From: a virus
Strand: one strand, 5' to 3'
Length of the DNA: 24,232 nucleotides
Virus record (IMG/VR): IMGVR_UViG_3300030406_005059
Location: 1 to 24,232 of that record
Position numbers and translations under genes: made by a program. Shown one piece after another: positions 11,058 through 21,693 of the stretch; within the stretch, counting starts at the first letter, position 1; every line of letters starts with the position of its first letter. Under the pieces are notes generated by a model. It had not been told where the DNA came from. It saw nothing but the letters and a program-made list of their open reading frames with translations, and made no database searches.

Positions 11058-11461
11058 TGCGTCACCTCCTCAAGTGGTGATCCCAGCAGGCGCATTGCCT
11101 TGGGGAAGTTCTGGCGCTCGTCCTTGATCTTGCGGCACCAGATCATCAGTTTGCTGTTCTTCACCGCAGCGTGTGCAGCATCGAAGAACTCCCTCCCGTC
11201 GATAATGTCATGAAAATAGTTATCGGGTTCTCCATCATCGCACTGCCGATCGAACTGCATCCGGCTGTCAATCTGCCGCTCGCAAAGACCCTCGCTCTTC
11301 AGTCGCGCATATTCGGCGAGTGCATTCTCGATGAACATATTCTCGGACGATCCAAGCACCCTCTTAGTGCAGAGTTCGTAACCGCAAGACTTCAGCGCGT
11401 CCCGCATCTCATCCAGGGGCATGCCACCTTTGGCTGCCTTCAACATTGCATCCCAGAGCAT
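11054..11461 (-). CDS. Hypothetical 135-aa early protein
   Basis: I do not recognise it. The ATG overlaps the preceding stop (TAATG) after GGAGGTGAG, a convincing start. The product is mixed and helical, with a polar middle (MQFDRQCDDGEPDNYFHD) and four scattered cysteines that form no CxxC pair. There is no membrane segment. Operon position between a DNA-binding protein and a membrane protein gives no clear clue. Confidence 0.7.
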   Translation of the reverse strand: MLWDAMLKAAKGGMPLDEMRDALKSCGYELCTKRVLGSSENMFIENALAEYARLKSEGLCERQIDSRMQFDRQCDDGEPDNYFHDIIDGREFFDAAHAAVKNSKLMIWCRKIKDERQNFPKAMRLLGSPLEEVTQ

Positions 11462-12027
11462 TACTCACCTCCTCTTGTGGCGATCCGGTACTCCATCGCC
11501 TCTTTGTATTGATCGAAAGCCTTGGTGGCCTTGGTGATCTGCTCCAGGACTTCAGGCCAAACGAGACCGAGAACCTCCACGCTATCGGCGCAGTGCCCAC
11601 CGGGAACGTCGCCCAGCATCTCCCGACTGATGATCCCGAACTGATTGCCCACGGCGGTGAGCGTGTCAGCCAGCGCCTGAGCGTCGGGGTCGATCACGGG
11701 GCGTGGTGGGGCTACGTCAAACTCGACGGACACATACACGCCAGCCTTGCGCCCGCTGCGGGTCTTGCGCCTCGCCCTGGCACCGGTCTCGGTGTATGCC
11801 TTGACGACCAAGCCCATCTGCTCAAGGCGATGGCGAGCACTGCTCAGAGTCTGATGAGAGATGCCGAGTGCAGCCTCCGCCTCATCATCGGTGCTGCCGT
11901 AGGGTCCAAGCCCTGCGATGTGGTCCAGCACCTTGCTATCGATCTTGTTCGGATCGATCGAAAGCATAGCGTCATGGCTAATCTTGGCTGCGCTATTCGG
12001 TTCTAAGGGTTTCTTCTTCTTGCACAT
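11461..12027 (-). CDS. Winged-helix DNA-binding protein, possible early regulator or origin binder
   Basis: A 188-aa protein with an AGGAGG site nine bases before the ATG at 12027. Residues about 32-100 have the winged helix-turn-helix layout: VLDHIAGLGPYGSTDDEAEA, then LGISHQTLSSARHRLEQMG as the recognition region and a basic wing (RARRKTRSGRKAG). The remainder is helical. Similar phage proteins act as regulators or replication-initiation factors. It overlaps the preceding helix-turn-helix gene by 35 bases. It is one of two candidates for the factor that binds the CTGCCA palindromes. Confidence 0.75.
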   Translation of the reverse strand: MCKKKKPLEPNSAAKISHDAMLSIDPNKIDSKVLDHIAGLGPYGSTDDEAEAALGISHQTLSSARHRLEQMGLVVKAYTETGARARRKTRSGRKAGVYVSVEFDVAPPRPVIDPDAQALADTLTAVGNQFGIISREMLGDVPGGHCADSVEVLGLVWPEVLEQITKATKAFDQYKEAMEYRIATRGGE

Positions 12028-12433
12028 GTGACGATTCCTCCTCGTCGTTGGTGGGCACTTCTTTGTGCCTGTTGAGAGTGTTTGACAGCGCGTCTCTTGC
12101 CTCGGCGCTGGTCATATCCTCGTTTAAAGCGAGCCTGCCCAAGTCCTCAGTCGGGACGGGTGCCAGGTCTCTGATGATCCGGTGAACATAGGAAGCGGTC
12201 TTGCCATACCTTCTGACTAGTTCGCCTGCGCTTGTCCCGGTGCGATGCTCGAAGACGAGCCGACACTTTTCCCTGGGGTCGAGCCTCGGCGTCTTGCTCT
12301 GCCTCTGTGGGTCAGGTGCTCCGACGTAAACCCAAGCCCCGCTCTTGATGCCTTGCGCCACCATGCGAGCCTGTATCTGGGAGACCAGATCGGGGCATAG
12401 CTCACGCGCCTTGTGACGTGGTACGCTCACCAT
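11993..12433 (-). CDS. Helix-turn-helix DNA-binding protein
   Basis: A 146-aa protein. GAGGAGG lies about 10 bases upstream of the ATG at 12433, which overlaps the preceding stop by 7 bases. Residues 66-90 read as a simple helix-turn-helix: GTSAGELVRRYGKTASYVHR. The C-terminus is strongly acidic (NDEEESSHVQEEE). The N-terminal third has no recognisable domain. It could be a transcriptional regulator acting on the palindromes at 15853-15899 and 19528-19544, or a replication protein; this is only inference from fold and operon. Confidence 0.7.
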   Translation of the reverse strand: MVSVPRHKARELCPDLVSQIQARMVAQGIKSGAWVYVGAPDPQRQSKTPRLDPREKCRLVFEHRTGTSAGELVRRYGKTASYVHRIIRDLAPVPTEDLGRLALNEDMTSAEARDALSNTLNRHKEVPTNDEEESSHVQEEETLRTE

Positions 12434-13140: not shown

Positions 13141-13304
13141 TAGCTCAACCCTTCCCGGCAGATCGCCTTGCCCACGCGTCGCAGGGCTTTGTTCGCTGCC
13201 TTGCGAGCGTAGCGCGTGGCGCTCCCCGTGTAGCGCCGTTCGATCTTTGCGAATTTGATCTCGCTCTGCCACTTGCTGAATTTGTTAATTGCTTTCGTTT
13301 CCAT
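13140..13304 (-). CDS. 54-aa basic early protein
   Basis: Two ATGs are possible. I prefer 13304, which follows a GAGAGAGACC leader like those of two other early genes; the ATG at 13328 lacks a ribosome site. The product is short and basic, with helices rich in Lys and Arg (SEIKFAKIERRYTGSATRYA, then RKAANKALRRVGK). It is not recognised. A stable hairpin (13335-13368) lies just upstream of it. Confidence 0.6.
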   Translation of the reverse strand: METKAINKFSKWQSEIKFAKIERRYTGSATRYARKAANKALRRVGKAICREGLS

Positions 13305-13334
13305 GGTCTCTCTCTTTTCTCCTGACATCGCGCC

Positions 13335-13368
13335 AGGGTTGAGCGCCGCCGTAACGGCGCTCTGCCCT
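13335..13368. repeat. Inverted repeat / stable hairpin in the early leader
   Basis: GAGCGCCG (13341-13348) pairs perfectly with CGGCGCTC (13355-13362) over a 6-base loop, and AGGG (13335-13338) can pair with CCCT (13365-13368) outside it. There is no T-run on either side, so it is not a simple terminator. It lies between the 396-aa and the 54-aa genes and could set mRNA stability or processing. Confidence 0.6.
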
Positions 13369-13381
13369 GTAGCCTTGCCTG

Positions 13382-14572
13382 TTAGACTGCCCAGCGCTTC
13401 GCAGCGTTGCCCTCATAGGACCGCTTGGCAGTGACGTTACCATGCGCTGGGATGATAACCGCAAGGTTTTTCCCGCCCTGATTGCCTTTGCATCCGATCG
13501 GACAAGCGGCGCAGGTGACCTTCTGTCCGGCTTCTTCGCTTGCGGGGCATAGCGCCACAGGCATGGGACCGAGGGCTCGCAATGCTCGCCCGGTTTCCAC
13601 GTCCGGAGTGACGACGAAGGGTACCCAACCCGTCGATGTGCTTTCTTGGTAGCCTTGCGCATCGTCGACGCTGGCGCGTACTAGGGGCTTGAGGGCTTGC
13701 CGTTGCTCGCTCGAAACGGATTCGTTCTGCCATTGGTGGGTATAGCCGGTCCAGGTTTCCGCCTGGCTTGTGAGAGTAGACCATAGCGCCGCAGGAATAG
13801 CTGCAGGATCTCCATAAGTGCCAAGTCTAACGCGCTCGCCCATCCCTAGCAGTTCAAGCGCTCGCTTTGTGTCGACCCCGCAAAGGCTCGCCACTTCCTG
13901 CAGAGTGAGGTATCGCCCTTCGGTCGCAATGCCCATCCTGATGCCGCTACCAGTGACCGATTGCCAGACCGTGGCGAGGCTTCGCTGGTCAACATAGCAG
14001 GAACGCGTGCCGTCAGCTTGTGGACGGTGGGGGCAGGTGCCACAGATAGACTCCTCTAGTCTGTTCTGTAGCGCTGCCAATGGGGAGCGCTCAGCGCTGA
14101 GGATATAGGTCTGTCGCATGCTGCCCGTTTTACGGTTGCCGCTGCCGAATTGAATCATGGCAAAGACGGGCTCACCGTTGATCTGGCTCGGACCATGCCA
14201 TAGCAAGACGCCCCGATGCTTCGCTTTAATGCGGCGCATCATGACCTCAGGCGATAGCGTGGGCAGGCTTGCCACGTCCACGGATTCAAGGGCTTGAGCA
14301 TAGGACCGGACAACCCTAGTATGCTTCGCCCGTAGTGGGGCGAGCGATTTGGTGATAGCCCGATAGGGTTCACTGCGTCTGGACTTCGGCACGGTGCGCT
14401 TGACTTCGGCGCGTAGGGTTTCCTGGCGAGTCAGCAAGTCAGCGCGAGTAGCCACAAGCCTGGCGCGCAGTTGATCCCGTTGCTTTTTGGGCAGTAGCAA
14501 GGCGGCGCGGACAGCCGACAAGGGGAAGGCTTCGGTCTGCTTGGCTTGATAGGTTTGGGTCAAGGTTTTCAT
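13382..14572 (-). CDS. Cys-rich 396-aa early protein resembling DUF7227
   Basis: The largest early gene. From memory the order matches the phage DUF7227 family, whose function is unknown: SICGTCPHR (175-183), RSCYVDQ (190-196), RVRLGTYGDPAAIP (247-260), TGYTHQW (275-281), ASVDDAQG (300-307) and CPASEEAGQKVTCAACPIGC (342-361), then VIIPAHG. Seven cysteines (177, 180, 192, 342, 354, 357, 361) in two clusters look like metal or Fe-S ligands. The LTLQEVASLCGV segment resembles a helix-turn-helix. The first 110 residues are a helical, basic extension. It is read from an ATG four bases inside the upstream gene. No catalytic class can be assigned. Confidence 0.75.
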   Translation of the reverse strand: MKTLTQTYQAKQTEAFPLSAVRAALLLPKKQRDQLRARLVATRADLLTRQETLRAEVKRTVPKSRRSEPYRAITKSLAPLRAKHTRVVRSYAQALESVDVASLPTLSPEVMMRRIKAKHRGVLLWHGPSQINGEPVFAMIQFGSGNRKTGSMRQTYILSAERSPLAALQNRLEESICGTCPHRPQADGTRSCYVDQRSLATVWQSVTGSGIRMGIATEGRYLTLQEVASLCGVDTKRALELLGMGERVRLGTYGDPAAIPAALWSTLTSQAETWTGYTHQWQNESVSSEQRQALKPLVRASVDDAQGYQESTSTGWVPFVVTPDVETGRALRALGPMPVALCPASEEAGQKVTCAACPIGCKGNQGGKNLAVIIPAHGNVTAKRSYEGNAAKRWAV

Positions 14573-15138: not shown

Positions 15139-15226
15139 GGTCTCTCTCTCTCTCCCCGTAGGGGAGGGTTCGGGTTGGCGGGATTGCCTTCCCACCAGCA
15201 TGAAGCCATAACCAGAACCCTTGGGC

Positions 15227-15257
15227 AATAGTTCACTGCATTATTTCCCAAACTATT
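15227..15257. promoter_or_regulatory. A+T-rich inverted repeat, possible early operator/promoter zone
   Basis: AATAGTT (15227-15233) is repeated in inverse as AACTATT (15251-15257), 17 bases apart, in the A+T-rich tract about 90 bases upstream of the first early gene. I see no good -35/-10 pair in the - direction, so the early promoter may be non-consensus. Confidence 0.35.
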
Positions 15258-15510
15258 TTACTTTCTGCCGTGTTTACAGGGACTTGCAAGGCGGCCACCC
15301 CTTGTCACCCTTGGCACTATCTGGCGCTGTATCGGTAGGGCTCACGTGTGCGGGCGCATGGGGATCGAATCTGGTCACAAGGTCTCAACCCTAGGGCAAC
15401 GGGGGCACCACTTGCGGGCTGGCTTGGCATGGGGAGACGGGGCATGTGGCATGGGGCTTGCGGTCAGAATGTTGCGCCTGCCCGACCAGCAAGGGCCCGT
15501 GCGTATTTCC

Positions 15511-15548
15511 GGTCGCGACCAGAGAACGTGCGAGCAGAAGAACGTGCG
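15511..15548. repeat. 10-bp palindrome followed by two direct 9-mers
   Basis: GGTCGCGACC (15511-15520) is a perfect palindrome. GAACGTGCG follows at 15524-15532 and 15540-15548, 16 bases apart. The arrangement is iteron-like and sits in the non-coding divergent region. It could be an origin or regulator site; there are too few copies to call it one. Confidence 0.45.
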
Positions 15549-15649
15549 TCATGCGAGGCGATGTTCCTGTCCGGCAGCCTGAATGCGTATATACCACCCG
15601 AAAACTGCGCCACGGGTTTTTACTCAGGGTGACAGCTAGCGTTGGTACT

Positions 15650-15688
15650 GCCCTTGCGGCCCTGGGGGGCCTCGGGCTTTTCTTCTTT
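15650..15688 (+). terminator. GC-rich terminator-like hairpin, + strand
   Basis: GGCCC (15658-15662) pairs with GGGCC (15667-15671) over a TGGG loop. An outer GCCC/GGGC pair (15650-15653 with 15674-15677) extends the stem. A T-rich tract (15678-15688) follows. No + strand gene lies upstream, so the transcript it would end is unknown. Confidence 0.5.
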
Positions 15689-15790
15689 ATGGGGAATGAG
15701 CAGTGGAGGGGTACCGACAGTGCGATGAAGCGGGATCGATTAGTCTACGTTACAACCAGCTACTAAAATTACCATACCGCATGTGCGTTA

Positions 15791-15851
15791 CCTGAGAGGA
15801 AAGGGTGCTGTCAAATGCTCTCAAAGTCCTTTGTTTTCAGGGTTTTTTTTT
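15791..15851 (+). terminator. Terminator-like hairpin with a nine-T run, + strand
   Basis: Bases 15791-15804 can pair with 15828-15841 (13 of 14 positions, including two G-T wobbles), leaving a 23-base loop, and a run of nine T begins two bases later. It directly precedes the late control sites. It would shield the late operon from upstream transcription, or end a short RNA made from the control region. Confidence 0.5.
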
Positions 15852-15852
15852 A

Positions 15853-15871
15853 GACTGCCATTCTGACAGTC
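15853..15871. promoter_or_regulatory. Operator-like palindrome, copy 1
   Basis: GACTGCCATTCTGACAGTC is a palindrome with 8-bp arms (one mismatch) around a 3-base centre. It is the first of three related sites. Its centre is 30 bp from the centre of copy 2, about three helical turns, so both could be bound on the same DNA face. Confidence 0.6.
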
Positions 15872-15884
15872 GGAGTTCTTGTGG

Positions 15885-15899
15885 CTGCCATTTTGGCAG
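15885..15899. promoter_or_regulatory. Operator-like palindrome, copy 2
   Basis: CTGCCATTTTGGCAG is a perfect palindrome with 6-bp arms and a 3-base centre. Its right half overlaps the -35 hexamer of the late promoter candidate at 15893-15922. It shares its sequence with the site inside the 19521-19550 promoter. Confidence 0.65.
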
Positions 15900-15922
15900 G
15901 ATGACATCTTTTGTCCTATGGT
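15893..15922 (+). promoter_or_regulatory. Candidate late promoter upstream of terS
   Basis: TTGGCA (15893-15898; five of six match to -35) is followed after 18 bp by TATGGT (15917-15922; four of six to -10). The transcript would start near 15929, just before the 55-aa ORF. The -35 box is formed by the right half of palindrome copy 2, so a bound factor would directly block or contact polymerase. Confidence 0.4.
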
Positions 15923-15935
15923 GTAGAGGGGGATT

Positions 15936-16103
15936 ATGAGCCGTCCCAACTGGAACCAGCACGAGGCGTTCAAAGAGTGGTTGTTATCGGTGGAGTACGC
16001 TGTGATGCGAGATGGCAAGTTCCACCTCTACCTTTCCGATGGAGTAGCGTGCTACATGTACGAAGCGTGGTGGGCAGGGAAAGAGGATCAAAGTGAGTCG
16101 TAG
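15936..16103 (+). CDS. 55-aa first late gene, hypothetical
   Basis: A short gene starting at ATG 15936, with AGAGGGGG a few bases upstream. The product (MSRPNWNQHEAFKEWLLSVE, then RDGKFHLYLSDGVACYMYEA, then WWAGKEDQ) is compact and Trp/Tyr-rich with an amphipathic helix. Its last 11 bases overlap the TerS start, so the two are probably coupled. It is not recognised. Codon-scale features and spacing make it more likely real than chance. Confidence 0.65.
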   Translation: MSRPNWNQHEAFKEWLLSVEYAVMRDGKFHLYLSDGVACYMYEAWWAGKEDQSES

Positions 16104-16644
16104 ATTAAATGCCGAGCAGTTGCAGGAATGTCGTGCCCAGTGGGAGAGCGGGATTCCTGTGTCCGAGTTGGCCGAGCAGTTCGGAGTATCTCAGAGAACC
16201 ATCAAGCGGTACAGAGCCCGAGGCAAGTGGGACCGTGAGAAAGGCGACCTCGACGAGACCACTCTCCAAAAGGCTAAAGAGCGGGTGAACGAGAGAATCG
16301 AGTTGTACCTGCATCAAGAAGAGACAGCGCTCAAAGCGGCAGTGGCTCAGAGTATGAGCAAAGCCAGAGAGACTGTGACCGAGGTGCTGGAGCGGCACAA
16401 AGACTTCAGCCACAGACTGGCGGGAGTAATGGAGCGGGAGATCGGCAACCTGGAGAACAACCCGGACCCCAACCCCTCGAAGCGGCTCAACCACATCAAG
16501 GTAGCCTCCGAGGTGATCAGCAGCATCCAGCGCATCGAGCGGAAGACCTGGGGCATCGACGACAAAGCAGACGCCAGCGACCTCGACCAGATTCTCATGG
16601 AGATCGAGCAGGAAGAGGAACGGCGCACAGAGGAAGTCAACTGA
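16093..16644 (+). CDS. terS: Terminase small subunit
   Basis: A 183-aa DNA-recognition subunit of the packaging motor. It starts with GTG; AGAGG lies six bases upstream. Residues 20-41 form a helix-turn-helix (IPVSELAEQFGVSQRTIKRY). A long helical region with heptad character follows (about 55-150), as in ring-forming TerS proteins, and then an acidic tail (EIEQEEERRTEE) that usually contacts TerL. No nuclease motif is present, as expected. The large subunit lies 1.3 kb downstream, with three unknown genes between. Confidence 0.82.
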   Translation: MSRRLNAEQLQECRAQWESGIPVSELAEQFGVSQRTIKRYRARGKWDREKGDLDETTLQKAKERVNERIELYLHQEETALKAAVAQSMSKARETVTEVLERHKDFSHRLAGVMEREIGNLENNPDPNPSKRLNHIKVASEVISSIQRIERKTWGIDDKADASDLDQILMEIEQEEERRTEEVN

Positions 16645-16645
16645 C

Positions 16646-17200
16646 ATGGCTAAAAAAGAAGACGTTCGTAAGGCTGCCATCAAAAAAGCTGAGGGCAAAA
16701 GACCCAAGGCGCAGAGAGAGGTGGCGTTCGTAACCCGCACGCTGAAGACTCCTAAGAAACCGGAAGTTTGGGATCTCATGAAAGCCGGCGGTGCTGTCGC
16801 CAAATACCCAGTAGACGAAATGATTGGCAGTTCATATGGACGGTTTGACGAACCTGCATCTCGTTTGGCAAAGGTTAGTAAACCGCAACTTAGCGCCTCT
16901 CGGATTAGAATGTTTCCCGATGCGGAGGAGCACTCCAAACGAAGAGACAGCGCTCACCTAGAAGCAATTATGCAGGGCGACAAGAAAGCGATAGAGCAGG
17001 CGAAGGTCTTGCAGCGTGTTCACCGTTTCGAGTTGGACGAACGGACAAGGCAAAGGAACTATGACCCCGATTTCTTTGAGAAAAACAAAGAAGGCACCGT
17101 TGAAATCCTAAAAGAGCGCATTAAGGCTTATGATGATGCACTAGCTGGCAAGTGGAAAGGAAACACCCCCCGCTCTGGCTATGGTAAAGAGAAAGAGTGA
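16646..17200 (+). CDS. Hypothetical 184-aa protein between the terminase genes
   Basis: It starts one base after the terS stop. The product is charged, with a basic N-terminus (MAKKEDVRKAAIKKAEGKRP), a middle that contains VWDLMKAGGAVAKYP and SYGRFDEPASRLAKV, and a C-terminal helix. I see no known fold, membrane segment or cysteine cluster. Insertion between terS and terL is unusual and suggests a packaging or early-assembly helper, but this is context only. Confidence 0.7.
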   Translation: MAKKEDVRKAAIKKAEGKRPKAQREVAFVTRTLKTPKKPEVWDLMKAGGAVAKYPVDEMIGSSYGRFDEPASRLAKVSKPQLSASRIRMFPDAEEHSKRRDSAHLEAIMQGDKKAIEQAKVLQRVHRFELDERTRQRNYDPDFFEKNKEGTVEILKERIKAYDDALAGKWKGNTPRSGYGKEKE

Positions 17201-17202
17201 TC

Positions 17203-17613
17203 ATGGCCCGACGCAAAAAGATTAAGATGGACCACTTCTCGCTGGAGTTGATGCTCTCCAACATGATCGGGGAGATCGGCGGGTACTGGCACCACAACAT
17301 GCGGGGCAACAGCAGCGTTGACGATATGATGCGCTACCACGTCCTTTATGTTGTCACCCGCACGCACGTCACCAACACGTTCAAGGCCATCAGCAACTTC
17401 GACGAAGACCACATGAACGACCGGCACCGTATGCTCTGGCACAAAACCAAAGAGTTTATGAACTGCCTGGAGACGTTCCCCGCTCACATTCACGAGAAAC
17501 CCAAAGAAGTGGAGCGCTTCTGCGAGAACTTCGTTCCTTGGATCAAGGCTTGCTTGACGCTCATTGATACCCGTACAAGTCAGAAAGAGGCGGAAGCCGT
17601 CGCTAACAGTTAG
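17203..17613 (+). CDS. Hypothetical 136-aa helical protein
   Basis: I place the start at ATG 17203 (GAGAAAGAG upstream), two bases after the preceding stop, rather than at GTG 17197. The product is helical and rich in His, Met and aromatic residues (MLSNMIGEIGGYWHHNM, VTRTHVTNTFKAISNF, ETFPAHIHEKPKEVERFCEN). Several His are spaced so that metal binding is possible but not demonstrated. No family is recognised. Confidence 0.7.
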   Translation: MARRKKIKMDHFSLELMLSNMIGEIGGYWHHNMRGNSSVDDMMRYHVLYVVTRTHVTNTFKAISNFDEDHMNDRHRMLWHKTKEFMNCLETFPAHIHEKPKEVERFCENFVPWIKACLTLIDTRTSQKEAEAVANS

Positions 17614-17621
17614 GACCAATC

Positions 17622-17918
17622 ATGGAATATGGTGAGAAGAAAAAGGGCAACCCCCACGGTAAAGGCAAGGGCATGGCGATCACCATTATGATGGGTATGC
17701 CTATGTCTAAGAAAGGCATGAAGGCTGGCAAGTCCCGTCGGGACGCAGTGAAGAAAGCCAAGGAAGAAGCCGAGCGGGAGAAGTTCGAGCCTCACATCAT
17801 GATCGACCCAGAGTCCGGCAAGAAGGTCAAAGTGAAGACCTACGAAGAGCATCTCAAGCTGAAAGACGAAGGCTACCTCCACGAAGACGAGATGGAAGAG
17901 GAAGAAGAAGAAGAGTAG
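17622..17918 (+). CDS. 98-aa protein with a poly-Glu tail
   Basis: A short linker-like protein. It has a Gly/Lys/Met-rich start (KKKGNPHGKGKGMAITIMMG), a basic helix (KKAKEEAEREKF) and a C-terminal run of acidic residues (about ten Glu). The stop abuts the terL ATG directly. The charge polarity suggests a binding role, for example holding basic partners or mimicking DNA; unproven. It is not recognised. Confidence 0.7.
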   Translation: MEYGEKKKGNPHGKGKGMAITIMMGMPMSKKGMKAGKSRRDAVKKAKEEAEREKFEPHIMIDPESGKKVKVKTYEEHLKLKDEGYLHEDEMEEEEEEE

Positions 17919-19517
17919 ATGATTAACGACAAGGCACTCAGGCTCCGCAAGGAAGTCGAAGCCTGTCGTAACAACTTCTGGTACTTCGCTACCCGCTACG
18001 CCAAACTGTCAGACATCAATGGTAAGATCTGCACCATCGACCCGTTCGATGCCCAGAAAGAAATCATCTCCGGGCTCAACAGCCACAACAACATTATGAT
18101 TCTCAAGGCCCGCAAACTCGGGTCGTCCACCGTTATCGCTCTCTACTTCCTCTGGAAGGTTCTCTTCTGGAGAAATACCAAGTGCGCTGTCGTTGCCCAT
18201 GACGACAAGTCAGCGGAAGAAATCTTTGAAATCTATAAGTTCGCTTATCGCCACCTTCCTAAACAGTTTCAAATCCCAACCATCAAATCCCGTTCCGACG
18301 AAATGCGATTCAAAACAGGCTCGCAGATCAAGGTGGGTACGGCGGACTCTGAGCGATGGCGGTCCCAAACTTACCAGTACATACACGCTTCTGAGTACGC
18401 ATTCTGGAAGGATCCTCAAAAGACCATGAGCGCCCTGTTCGGCACTGCCGGCAAGGAAGCTAAAGTCATCATGGAATCCACAGCCAACGGGCTCAACGCT
18501 GCCCACGAACTGTGGATCAAAGAAAACGGCTGGAATAAGATCTTCCTCAACTGGCTAGCCGATCCTCGCATGACGATGGAGCAACAACCCTACAATAGTT
18601 TCAGTGACGAAGAGGATAAGTTCGCTGAAGACCACGGCCTAACCCCAGGACAGAAGAACTGGATGGCCAAGCAACTGCGAACCAAGTGCGGTAACAACTG
18701 GGATGCCTTCAACCAGGAGCATCCGGTTACTGCTGAACTCTCCTTCATAGTTTCTGGCGCACGCTTTTTCAAGACACCGTTCCCATACACCGATTTACGG
18801 GAAGGATACGAGCAGTGGCACGAACCGTTGGACTACAGAATATACACAATGGGGGTCGATACTGCGTCTGGGTCGCCAGGGGGGGACTACAGCGCTTTTA
18901 TGGTGTTGGATGTTACCAAAAAACACGACATCAAAGTGTGCTCCTCCTTCTACGACCGAGTAGAGCCCGCACTATTCAAGGAAATCGTTGATAAAGAGGC
19001 CCAAAAGTACCACGATCAGAAGGGTTTAACCCACCAATGCTTGATTGTTGTCGAAACAACGGGTGGTTACGGCATCCCAATCATCGAAAAGTTACGATCT
19101 GAGCACCGCAGACTGTATCGACGCATCAAAGAAGACAAAGCAGGTGGCAAATGGACCGAACTTTTGGGGTTTAACACCAATGCGTCCAGCCGGCAGCAGC
19201 TTCTTTCACGCGTATACGAGTATATTACCCGTGGTTGGCTCGATATGACCTGCCCAACCTTCCTCAGAGAGGCAAATGCGCTGATTTACAACAAGCGAGG
19301 GCGGGTTGAGGCGTCACCAGGCAACCATGACGACATGATCTTCGCCTGTGGGCTCGCTCTGATGGGGCTAGACCAGATTCATGGCATCAAAGCCAACGCT
19401 GCCAAGTCGTTCAAGCCAAGGAACATCCGGCAGATGCTAGATTGGGAGCGACGTAACGGCAGAGGGTACGTCCCAACCGAGGAAACCGAACTCCAACCGT
19501 TCCACGAAGTCGGTTGA
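17919..19517 (+). CDS. terL: Terminase large subunit (ATPase and nuclease)
   Basis: A 532-aa packaging motor. ATPase: a Walker A-like KARKLGSST (63-71), the catalytic segment IHASEYAFW (155-163, E159) and the coupling motif ESTANG (186-191). RNase H-like nuclease: MGVDTASG (311-318, D314), VVETTGGYG (377-385, E379) and NHDDMIFA (469-476, D471/D472). All blocks are in order and the length is normal for a headful-type terminase. It would cut concatemers and pump DNA into the prohead through the portal encoded at 22294. The ATG directly follows the preceding stop, with a purine-rich leader inside the acidic coding tail. Confidence 0.95.
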   Translation: MINDKALRLRKEVEACRNNFWYFATRYAKLSDINGKICTIDPFDAQKEIISGLNSHNNIMILKARKLGSSTVIALYFLWKVLFWRNTKCAVVAHDDKSAEEIFEIYKFAYRHLPKQFQIPTIKSRSDEMRFKTGSQIKVGTADSERWRSQTYQYIHASEYAFWKDPQKTMSALFGTAGKEAKVIMESTANGLNAAHELWIKENGWNKIFLNWLADPRMTMEQQPYNSFSDEEDKFAEDHGLTPGQKNWMAKQLRTKCGNNWDAFNQEHPVTAELSFIVSGARFFKTPFPYTDLREGYEQWHEPLDYRIYTMGVDTASGSPGGDYSAFMVLDVTKKHDIKVCSSFYDRVEPALFKEIVDKEAQKYHDQKGLTHQCLIVVETTGGYGIPIIEKLRSEHRRLYRRIKEDKAGGKWTELLGFNTNASSRQQLLSRVYEYITRGWLDMTCPTFLREANALIYNKRGRVEASPGNHDDMIFACGLALMGLDQIHGIKANAAKSFKPRNIRQMLDWERRNGRGYVPTEETELQPFHEVG

Positions 19518-19520
19518 CGT

Positions 19521-19550
19521 TTGACAGACTGCCAAAATGGCAGTTAGATA
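19521..19550 (+). promoter_or_regulatory. Near-consensus sigma70 promoter before the scaffold gene
   Basis: TTGACA (19521-19526) is a perfect -35. TAGATA (19545-19550) is a four-of-six -10, 18 bp downstream. The whole spacer is filled by an operator-like palindrome (19528-19544). Transcription would start near 19557, about 43 bases before the scaffold ATG, which has a GGAGG site. This gives the capsid genes a control independent of terS/terL. Confidence 0.65.
19528..19544. promoter_or_regulatory. Operator-like palindrome, copy 3, in the promoter spacer
   Basis: ACTGCCAAAATGGCAGT has perfect 7-bp arms around AAA. It is the inverse-centre version of copy 2 (CTGCCA-TTT-TGGCAG). Placement between -35 and -10 is a classical position for a repressor, or for a MerR-type activator. 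Confidence 0.7.
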
Positions 19551-19599
19551 CGCCCACTCGTGCGCGTGGCCGTAAAACACGATTACTTGGAGGCGTAAA

Positions 19600-20358
19600 A
19601 TGGGCATCGAAATTACAGATGCAGATATGGATCGACTTTTCGCCGGGTCGAATGAAGCCGAGCCTTCGGGCTCCAACGAGGTCCAGACCGAAGAGGCAAA
19701 TACTGCGGAGGCCGCACCGGAACCCGCACCAGAGCCCCAGGTCGAAACCGCTACGGAGGAAGAGACGGGGCATGCAGTCCCATATTCTCGATTCTCCAAG
19801 GTCATTGCTGCTCGTAACGAGGCTCAAGAGCGAGCCACCAGTTATGAGGAGCGTCTCGCTTCGCTGCAACAGGAGCTAGAGGAAGCCAAGCGCTTCCGGT
19901 CCTATATGGACCAAATGCAACCTCAGCAGACGGCGCAGCCTGCCGTAGAACAGGCCGAAGAGGAGTGGATCGACCCAGCGGTAAGGTCGCAACTCGAATC
20001 AATGCAGCAACGGTTGCAACACTTCGAGTACAACACCCAGGTAGACCGTGAGACTCAGAACGTTCTTAGAGAGGTGTCCTCTGCCCAGCAGATGCACCCC
20101 AGCGTTCCTGAAGAAGCGTTCTATGAGGCGTTGAATCGTGACCCTCATGCGGATCTCAACGCATTTGGCAGTATGTACACACAGCGTATTGCCGAGATTG
20201 AGGAGGCTGCGATCGCTCGTCATGTGGCGAGTCAGAAAACAGCCCCCGACGTTCCCCCGGAAGTCGGTTCTCAAACGGGGAAGAGATCCTCGGGACAGGC
20301 CGACACAAGTAAACAATCATGGCAGGACAGCCTAGATAAGCTGTTCGGCCTAACCTGA
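19600..20358 (+). CDS. Capsid scaffolding protein
   Basis: A 252-aa acidic, helical protein directly before the major capsid gene, with GGAGG seven bases upstream. The N-terminal 60 residues are Glu/Pro/Ala-rich and disordered. Residues about 63-105 (VPYSRFSKVIAARNEAQERA and onward, LASLQQELEEAK) are the usual coiled-coil start of phage scaffolds, and a longer Gln/Glu-rich helical region follows to about 210. The Ser/Gly-rich end has a short helix (WQDSLDKLFGL), which is often the capsid-binding tip. No protease motif is visible, so a separate protease or autolysis is not indicated. Confidence 0.8.
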   Translation: MGIEITDADMDRLFAGSNEAEPSGSNEVQTEEANTAEAAPEPAPEPQVETATEEETGHAVPYSRFSKVIAARNEAQERATSYEERLASLQQELEEAKRFRSYMDQMQPQQTAQPAVEQAEEEWIDPAVRSQLESMQQRLQHFEYNTQVDRETQNVLREVSSAQQMHPSVPEEAFYEALNRDPHADLNAFGSMYTQRIAEIEEAAIARHVASQKTAPDVPPEVGSQTGKRSSGQADTSKQSWQDSLDKLFGLT

Positions 20359-20373
20359 TAAGGATTTAAGAAA

Positions 20374-21693
20374 ATGGCTGTCACCTCTGGTGCTGTTACA
20401 ATTGCTGAGATTCGTAACTGGATGAACGACACGTTCGTCTCGAAAGTCGAAGATCAGTTGAATCGCGAGATCCTTGCCGTCGAGTTGTTTAAGCAGCACA
20501 ACACTGGCTTTACCGACGGGCAAGCGATCGTTCCTATTAACTATGCTCGGAATACCTCGGCTTCGTACCGTAGTGAAAACTCTGCGCTTCCCGATTCGGG
20601 AGAACTTGGCCGTGCTCGCCTGAGCGTTGACGCTAAGTATCTCTATAGTCGTATGTCCCTGAGCGGCCCTGCCATCGAGTCTGGACGCAACAACCCTAAC
20701 GGCTTGAAGGCTACCCTTCAGGAAGAAATTGATGGTGCTTTGGAGTCCCTCTCCAACCGTGCCAACAACTACTTCTTCTCCGGCGGTGGCGTCATCGGCT
20801 ACGTTTGCTCCAGCACTGACTTGAATGCAGCGCCTGTAGACTTCTTCGGAAACGTAGAGCACTTGGACACAAGCAACCCAGGGGGTGGTGCTAGTATCAG
20901 AGTAGATTTGGTTCGGATGGACACCTACGCTGTTGAGGTTTCAAACGCTCAGTTGCGTGTTGCCACCTCTGCGGGGACTTCGGAAGCAGCTTTCCAAGTT
21001 GAAACTTTAGCTGCTGCTGACTTGGCCGCCGTGCCGCAGGGAGTTCCTACTGCAATCCGCGTGCGTGCAGATCAGACGTATGCTGACACCTCCACGGAAA
21101 CGGTTGCGGACCAGACTGTTGGTATTATGAGCAACTTGTCGCTCAAGGATCACTTCGGTTTGGATCGCAGCACAGCTACGGGGACGTACGCATCGCTTCA
21201 GTCTAACTTCATTACGAAGTGCCTAAAGACAAACGGCAATGGCGTCGACTTTACGTCTAGCATGTTGCAGGAGTTGTTCACGAAGATTCAGCGTCAGAGC
21301 GACAAGCGCCCTGAAGTTCTATTCGTCGAGCACGGGTTCATGGATCAATACGTTTCGATCCTGACCACCACCGCATCGAGCGGTAACTTCCGCATCACTA
21401 ACAATCAGGCAGGCAAAGGCGCTGACGCTGGCTTCAACACCCAGCAGATGAGTTACGGATCGGTTCCGTTCCGTGCCAGCCGTCACGCTCCCAAGGGCTG
21501 CGTGATTGCTCTTGCTCCCAGCACCTGGGCGCATGTGACTCTCAAGGGTCCGGGCATGGCTGATCTGGACGGTAACGTTCTTAGTCGTATCACCGACAAG
21601 GATGCGTACGAAGCGTATGCTCGTTACTACCACAACCTGGCTGCTAAGCGTCCGAATGCCAACGGCATCCTGACGGGAATCAAGCACTCCTAG
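20374..21693 (+). CDS. Major capsid protein
   Basis: A 439-aa protein that follows the scaffold by 15 bases, with a purine-rich ribosome site (AAGGA). The N-terminal half starts with a helix (TIAEIRNWMNDTFVSKVEDQ). A central Ala/Thr/Val-rich region (about 180-250) could be an inserted beta domain. The C-terminal region has FRASRHAPKGCVIALAPSTW and a short end. This fits an HK97-fold capsid subunit of podovirus-like phages. I assign it from position after the scaffold, length and composition; the fold cannot be confirmed by eye. Confidence 0.85.
   Translation: MAVTSGAVTIAEIRNWMNDTFVSKVEDQLNREILAVELFKQHNTGFTDGQAIVPINYARNTSASYRSENSALPDSGELGRARLSVDAKYLYSRMSLSGPAIESGRNNPNGLKATLQEEIDGALESLSNRANNYFFSGGGVIGYVCSSTDLNAAPVDFFGNVEHLDTSNPGGGASIRVDLVRMDTYAVEVSNAQLRVATSAGTSEAAFQVETLAAADLAAVPQGVPTAIRVRADQTYADTSTETVADQTVGIMSNLSLKDHFGLDRSTATGTYASLQSNFITKCLKTNGNGVDFTSSMLQELFTKIQRQSDKRPEVLFVEHGFMDQYVSILTTTASSGNFRITNNQAGKGADAGFNTQQMSYGSVPFRASRHAPKGCVIALAPSTWAHVTLKGPGMADLDGNVLSRITDKDAYEAYARYYHNLAAKRPNANGILTGIKHS

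Follow-up and report, generated by a model that had tools for sequence, protein, structure and literature searches.

Genome organisation and related contigs

The DNA analysed here (the window) is a linear 24.2-kb virus contig (24,232 nt) with divergent early and late genes. The early genes run leftward from nt 15228 and include those for SSB, RuvC, an exonuclease VIII-like protein and a C5 methylase, among others. The late genes run rightward from nt 15936. The first of these is a small ORF (55 aa, nt 15936-16103, + strand) with no match in the related contig L027, and it is followed by genes for a terminase small subunit-like protein (TerS) with an N-terminal helix-turn-helix (nt 16093-16644, +; PHROG terminase small subunit families, HTH_7), the terminase large subunit (TerL, nt 17919-19517, +; phrog_2, 3.5e-30), a scaffold-position protein, named by its position alone and without a family match (nt 19600-20358, +), the major capsid protein (nt 20374-21693, +; phrog_14242, 1.1e-25) and the portal protein.

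There is no close cultured relative, the best-ranked TerL matches showing about 25% identity, and nt 15200-19700 gave no match to cultured phages by DNA similarity. TerL found no relative in bacterial genomes. The early protein encoded at nt 13382-14572, used as bait, brought up no relatives. Near kin were sought via TerL, TerS, an early protein and DNA patterns, and all of them are metagenome contigs. One, G001, matches the window at 99.9% identity along 8.1 kb and hence is not independent of it.

A palindrome repeated at late-gene starts

A scan of the window for CTGYCA-N3-TGRCAG, allowing up to one mismatch, found sites at nt 15855, 15885 and 19529 only, the same three copies that had been noticed by eye in a first-pass annotation. 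Site 1 is an imperfect palindrome of 19 bp (GACTGCCATTCTGACAGTC, nt 15853-15871, core nt 15855-15869), site 2 is a perfect palindrome (CTGCCATTTTGGCAG, nt 15885-15899) and site 3 is a perfect palindrome of 17 bp (ACTGCCAAAATGGCAGT, nt 19528-19544). The core first given for all three, CTGCCA-N3-TGGCAG, is correct for sites 2 and 3; the arms of site 1 differ at one pair, its right arm being TGACAG. The centre is 3 bp in every copy, and the centres of sites 1 and 2 (nt 15862 and 15892) are indeed 30 bp apart.

Only 0.009 such sites are expected per shuffle, against the three observed in 24.2 kb. When two mismatches were allowed, five further sites appeared, which is near the chance level (all eight versus 4.75 expected). 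Perfect 6-3-6 palindromes by themselves are common (7 in the window versus 6.7 per shuffle), so one lone copy says little. A pair of them with the same arms arose in 12 of 1500 shuffles, and such a pair plus a third copy within one mismatch in none of 1500; the rarity is in the shared arm word, not in palindromy. The half-site TGRCAG occurs at 8.5 per kb in the intergenic region nt 15229-15935 versus 1.5 per kb elsewhere, an excess that consists mostly of the sites themselves. Window and kin DNA together, about 116 kb, contain nine exact sites, and all nine are intergenic, either upstream of terS or at the terL/scaffold junction. The sites are thus not scattered in coding DNA; frequent copies there had been named in the first-pass annotation as an observation that would count against it.

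Sites 1 and 2, upstream of terS

A terminator-like hairpin with a T9 run (nt 15791-15850, +) ends 2 bp before site 1, and a similar fold is present in L014 (z -1.9 and -1.6). A + strand terminator placed where the late region begins would point to a short leader RNA or to control by read-through. Overlapping this segment on the other strand is TTGACA-N18-TAACGC (nt 15785-15814, -), a consensus match that has a counterpart at the matching place in L027 (TTGACA-N18-TATCGC, nt 18474, -; shared form TTGACA-N18-TAWCGC) and is possibly an early leftward promoter. Further upstream is a degenerate copy of the palindrome (TACTCAGGGTGACAG, nt 15621-15635), the right half-site of which is conserved (TAGTCAGGGTGACAG in L027). 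A search of the intergenic region against Rfam returned a sub-threshold match only.

The right arm of site 2 overlaps the -35-like hexamer of a promoter-like TTGGCA-N18-TATGGT (nt 15893-15922, +). This pair matches the consensus at 9 of 12 positions, a score expected 0.3 times per shuffle of the region and weak evidence alone.

Only one relative, G006 (L014/L027), covers this region. Site 1 is identical there and lies within a block in which 52 of 55 positions are the same, while the remainder of the intergenic region has diverged. Site 2 is absent from this sole spanning relative, and so is the promoter-like pair. G006 carries an extra perfect copy 396 bp upstream (CTGCCAGATTGGCAG), the right arm of which is again TTGGCA with a -10-like hexamer behind it, as at site 2. 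The overlap of copy 2 with a plausible -35, which had been pointed out before, is therefore real in the window and not conserved in L014/L027. It had also been said that each copy precedes a late block. The sites do lie only at late-gene starts; site 1 is in addition conserved next to the possible leftward promoter and the terminator-like hairpin, so that a place ahead of a late block is only one way to read it.

Sites 1 and 2 could alternatively be packaging-initiation sites (pac/cos-type) bound by TerS, the gene for which begins about 200 bp downstream. In favour are their position shortly before terS, the N-terminal helix-turn-helix of TerS, and the conservation in L027 of both this protein (93%) and site 1. 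On the other hand, the same sequence recurs 3.6 kb away as site 3, at a promoter-like element, and the contig ends give no sign that packaging starts at the sites, which makes this reading very unlikely.

Site 3 and its flipping centre

Site 3 occupies the 18-bp spacer of a promoter-like TTGACA-N18-TAGATA (nt 19521-19550, +; hexamers at nt 19521-19526 and 19545-19550) upstream of the scaffold-position and capsid genes. The promoters named here are matches to a sigma-70-like consensus with weak -10s, and that consensus may not be the host's. Each of the four near kin that span the junction carries site 3; three of the four are independent. An alignment of five contigs (the window, L004, L005, L006 and L008) showed TTGACA, both CTGCCA arms and a 32-bp leader to be invariant, with variation at two bases before the palindrome and one base after it. 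The leader, directly downstream of the promoter (nt 19553-19584, +), is identical in 4/4 relatives, the more distant of which differ from the window by about 10-20% in nearby coding DNA, and it is likely to be a constrained 5' untranslated leader. The earlier expectation that the copies would be kept in close relatives thus holds for sites 1 and 3 and fails for site 2. At about nt 1-500, upstream of terL, L005 and L006 also appear to specify a protein in which LysM-like stretches recur and which is absent from the window.

Over the 107-bp junction, L005 and L006 differ solely by a change from AAA to TTT at the centre of the palindrome. The window and L008 differ at the same three centre letters and at one other letter. 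When all pairwise alignments were scanned for short inversions flanked by arms of at least 4 bp, the centre of site 3 was the only case. The simplest cause of the AAA/TTT swap would be an inversion of the centre between the two arms. Such a flip leaves the symmetric site intact, as either a dimer operator or an RNA hairpin would allow. Small flips at hairpin loops are known in plastid genomes (PMC6824564); there, as here, a loop between short inverted repeats is found in both orientations among near relatives, whereas the present case concerns a phage, a centre of 3 bp and a likely operator.

The palindromes might instead work at the RNA level, as hairpins with a role in the processing, stability or attenuation of late messages; this would apply at least to site 3, which follows directly on the stop codon of terL. 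The folding energy of site 3 is -10.1 kcal/mol, a flipped centre preserves the hairpin, and more distant relatives also have an inverted repeat near the end of terL (GACGAAA-N6-TTTCGTC in L036, CGCCGC-N5-GCGGCG in L038). Folded as + strand RNA, however, site 1 reaches only -4.5 kcal/mol, against -8.5 and -10.1 kcal/mol for the other two, and on the transcribed strand it carries a C-A mismatch that is conserved. Because of this mismatch, and because the same arm word recurs at separate places, the shared feature is the sequence and not RNA pairing. The invariant TTGACA lies outside any hairpin, and a test for intrinsic terminators (a G+C-rich hairpin followed by a T run) found no T run behind site 2 or site 3; the T9 run comes before site 1 and is part of the hairpin upstream of it. 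A role as RNA hairpins is quite improbable.

L036, with a TerL 72% identical to that of the window, lacks the motif and keeps TTGACG-N18-TAAATG at the matching place, its own perfect dyad lying across the same spot as site 3. This one contig looks like a case of a retained promoter with a changed operator, a pattern to be expected if a promoter persists as the specificity of its operator shifts. Beyond it, the TerL relatives scanned at 31-44% identity are without the motif, and the distant relative G012 has no palindrome common to the two places.

Similar dyads in other DNA

Four exact CTGTCA-N3-TGACAG dyads are found in each of two unrelated phage contigs, L024 (nt 4192, 7401, 7759 and 8467) and L025 (nt 1042, 1666, 2025 and 5234), several of them just ahead of genes and often with TTGACA in the right arm. 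L020 has three CTGYCR-N3-YGRCAG dyads within 66 bp (nt 57-122), near a contig end. Given these near-identical dyads, the site class may extend beyond the present phage. Pattern matches in L018/L023 were rejected as sites of the same kind, being repeats inside a large hairpin (CATGACAGGCTG...CAGCCTGTCATG).

The dyads of L024 and L025, and the cluster in L020, would also fit sites of a host regulator that the phage has borrowed. Against this, literature searches with exact and degenerate site words gave no named regulator with such a site, and the exact site 3-type sequence occurred only twice in 257 Gb of bacterial genomes, which is about chance; borrowing from the host has a slim probability. 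The genome matches L116 and L117 were rejected, as no homologue of a window protein is nearby and their number is near chance.

Candidate regulator

An early helix-turn-helix protein of 146 aa (nt 11993-12433, -) is a fair candidate for the regulator of the sites. It has weak family matches and a relative in L027 (nt 13155-13505, -), and this homologue alone weakly matches late transcriptional activators (phrog_836, 9.8e-5). When both proteins were compared with the Mor family (Pfam Mor, 0.036-0.043), the values were below the cut-off and the match covered only the generic helix-turn-helix. A structure model of the candidate has a confident helix-turn-helix core; its best Foldseek E-value was 0.34 (with TrpR, Spo0J and KorB among the rows), and VIA-align Z-scores of at most 6.3 indicate a generic arrangement. 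The structure model of another early protein (nt 11461-12027, weak MarR_2 match) was unusable (pLDDT 38).

Such a protein could be an activator, that is, an early Mor/C-like protein that binds the dyads and recruits RNA polymerase to the late promoters, as in phage Mu. The weak matches of the L027 relative to late-activator families (phrog_836; Pfam Mor 0.036, below the cut-off) point this way, as do the weak -10s of the late promoters, the overlap of site 2 with a -35, and the dyad at -43.5 (its centre) to which Mor binds in Mu Pm (PMC4390567). Site 3, however, would lie near -20, between the -35 and -10 of a promoter that has a consensus -35, whereas Mu Pm is without one (PMC4390567). The family matches span the generic helix-turn-helix only, and the dyad is CTGYCA-N3 rather than a pair of 5-bp arms around a 6-bp spacer. 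Such activation, the chief alternative to repression, is rather unlikely.

Proposed mechanism

The reading preferred here, to which we give about an even chance, is that a single dimeric helix-turn-helix protein regulates late transcription in this phage group and has the three palindromes as its operators. A dimer would read two CTGYCA half-sites, one per strand, around the 3-bp centre. Bound at site 3, the dimer would occupy the -35/-10 spacer of the putative promoter that serves the scaffold-position and capsid genes. Upstream of terS, a pair of dimers on sites 1 and 2, separated by about three turns, would lie over the beginning of the packaging operon. The simplest meaning of this placement is that the bound protein keeps RNA polymerase blocked up to the late phase, since site 3 fills a spacer, site 2 overlaps a -35-like hexamer and site 1 lies 30 bp upstream. 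We infer that blocking RNA polymerase is more likely than recruiting it.

The distances of the sites from the promoter-like elements differ, which counts against the operator model, as do the loss of site 2 and its promoter-like pair in G006 and the lack of the motif in relatives with TerL identities of 31-44%. The first-pass annotation proposed a single phage-specific regulator. That there is one regulator is a fair deduction from one set of sites at late-gene starts, with site 3 kept in 4/4 relatives and site 1 in 1/1, and site 2 absent from the one relative that covers it. That it is phage-specific is a conjecture, as the similar dyads in unrelated phage contigs may mean a more widely shared class of site.

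A more elaborate version, which we consider unlikely, is that the palindrome serves as an operator and at the same time as a place of recurrent inversion, the centre at site 3 flipping repeatedly between sister phages. As the phage replicates, this late-promoter operator would be extruded as a hairpin or copied in that form, and the regulator would belong to an undescribed family that changes specificity between close phages.

The sites are most likely operators, an ordinary kind of switch; it is the flipping of the centre between sister phages that is unusual. The three sites give a testable map of late-gene regulation for an uncultivated phage group. Site 3 shows a probable symmetric operator tolerating inversion of its centre, and L036 appears to show an operator changing while the promoter spacing stays.

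Comparison with known systems

The E. coli LexA box is CTGT-N8-ACAG, with a 16-bp spacing (CTG-N10-CAG), and was ruled out because the present sites are CTG-N9-CAG (15 bp). The LuxR/las-type box is an even-length dyad with a 4-bp centre, CTGCCA-N4-TGGCAG in lasB, and was likewise ruled out, the centre being 3 bp in all copies here. MerR-type operators sit within long promoter spacers of 19-20 bp. The dyad of site 3 also lies between a -35 and a -10 in a longer-than-usual spacer, but this is 18 bp, sites 1 and 2 are outside spacers, and no MerR-like early protein was found in the window. The operators of temperate phages of the lambda OR type are repeated palindromes over and beside promoters. 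The resemblance extends to repeated palindromes at promoters and to two close copies between divergent early and late genes; here, however, the sites are only at late-gene starts and differ in sequence and spacing, and no repressor or integrase gene was recognised among the window proteins scanned. The Mor element of phage Mu, centred at -43.5, spans 16 bp, with 5-bp arms on either side of a 6-bp spacer, and takes the place of the -35 (PMC4390567). The geometry here departs from this, with 6-bp arms, a 3-bp spacer and, at site 3, a dyad placed between a consensus -35 and a -10. The likeness to the Mor/C sites of Mu would be in the overall plan, in which a small phage protein binds as a dimer to a short dyad at several middle and late promoters, and related sites recur in several late promoters (PMC4287176, PMC4390567).
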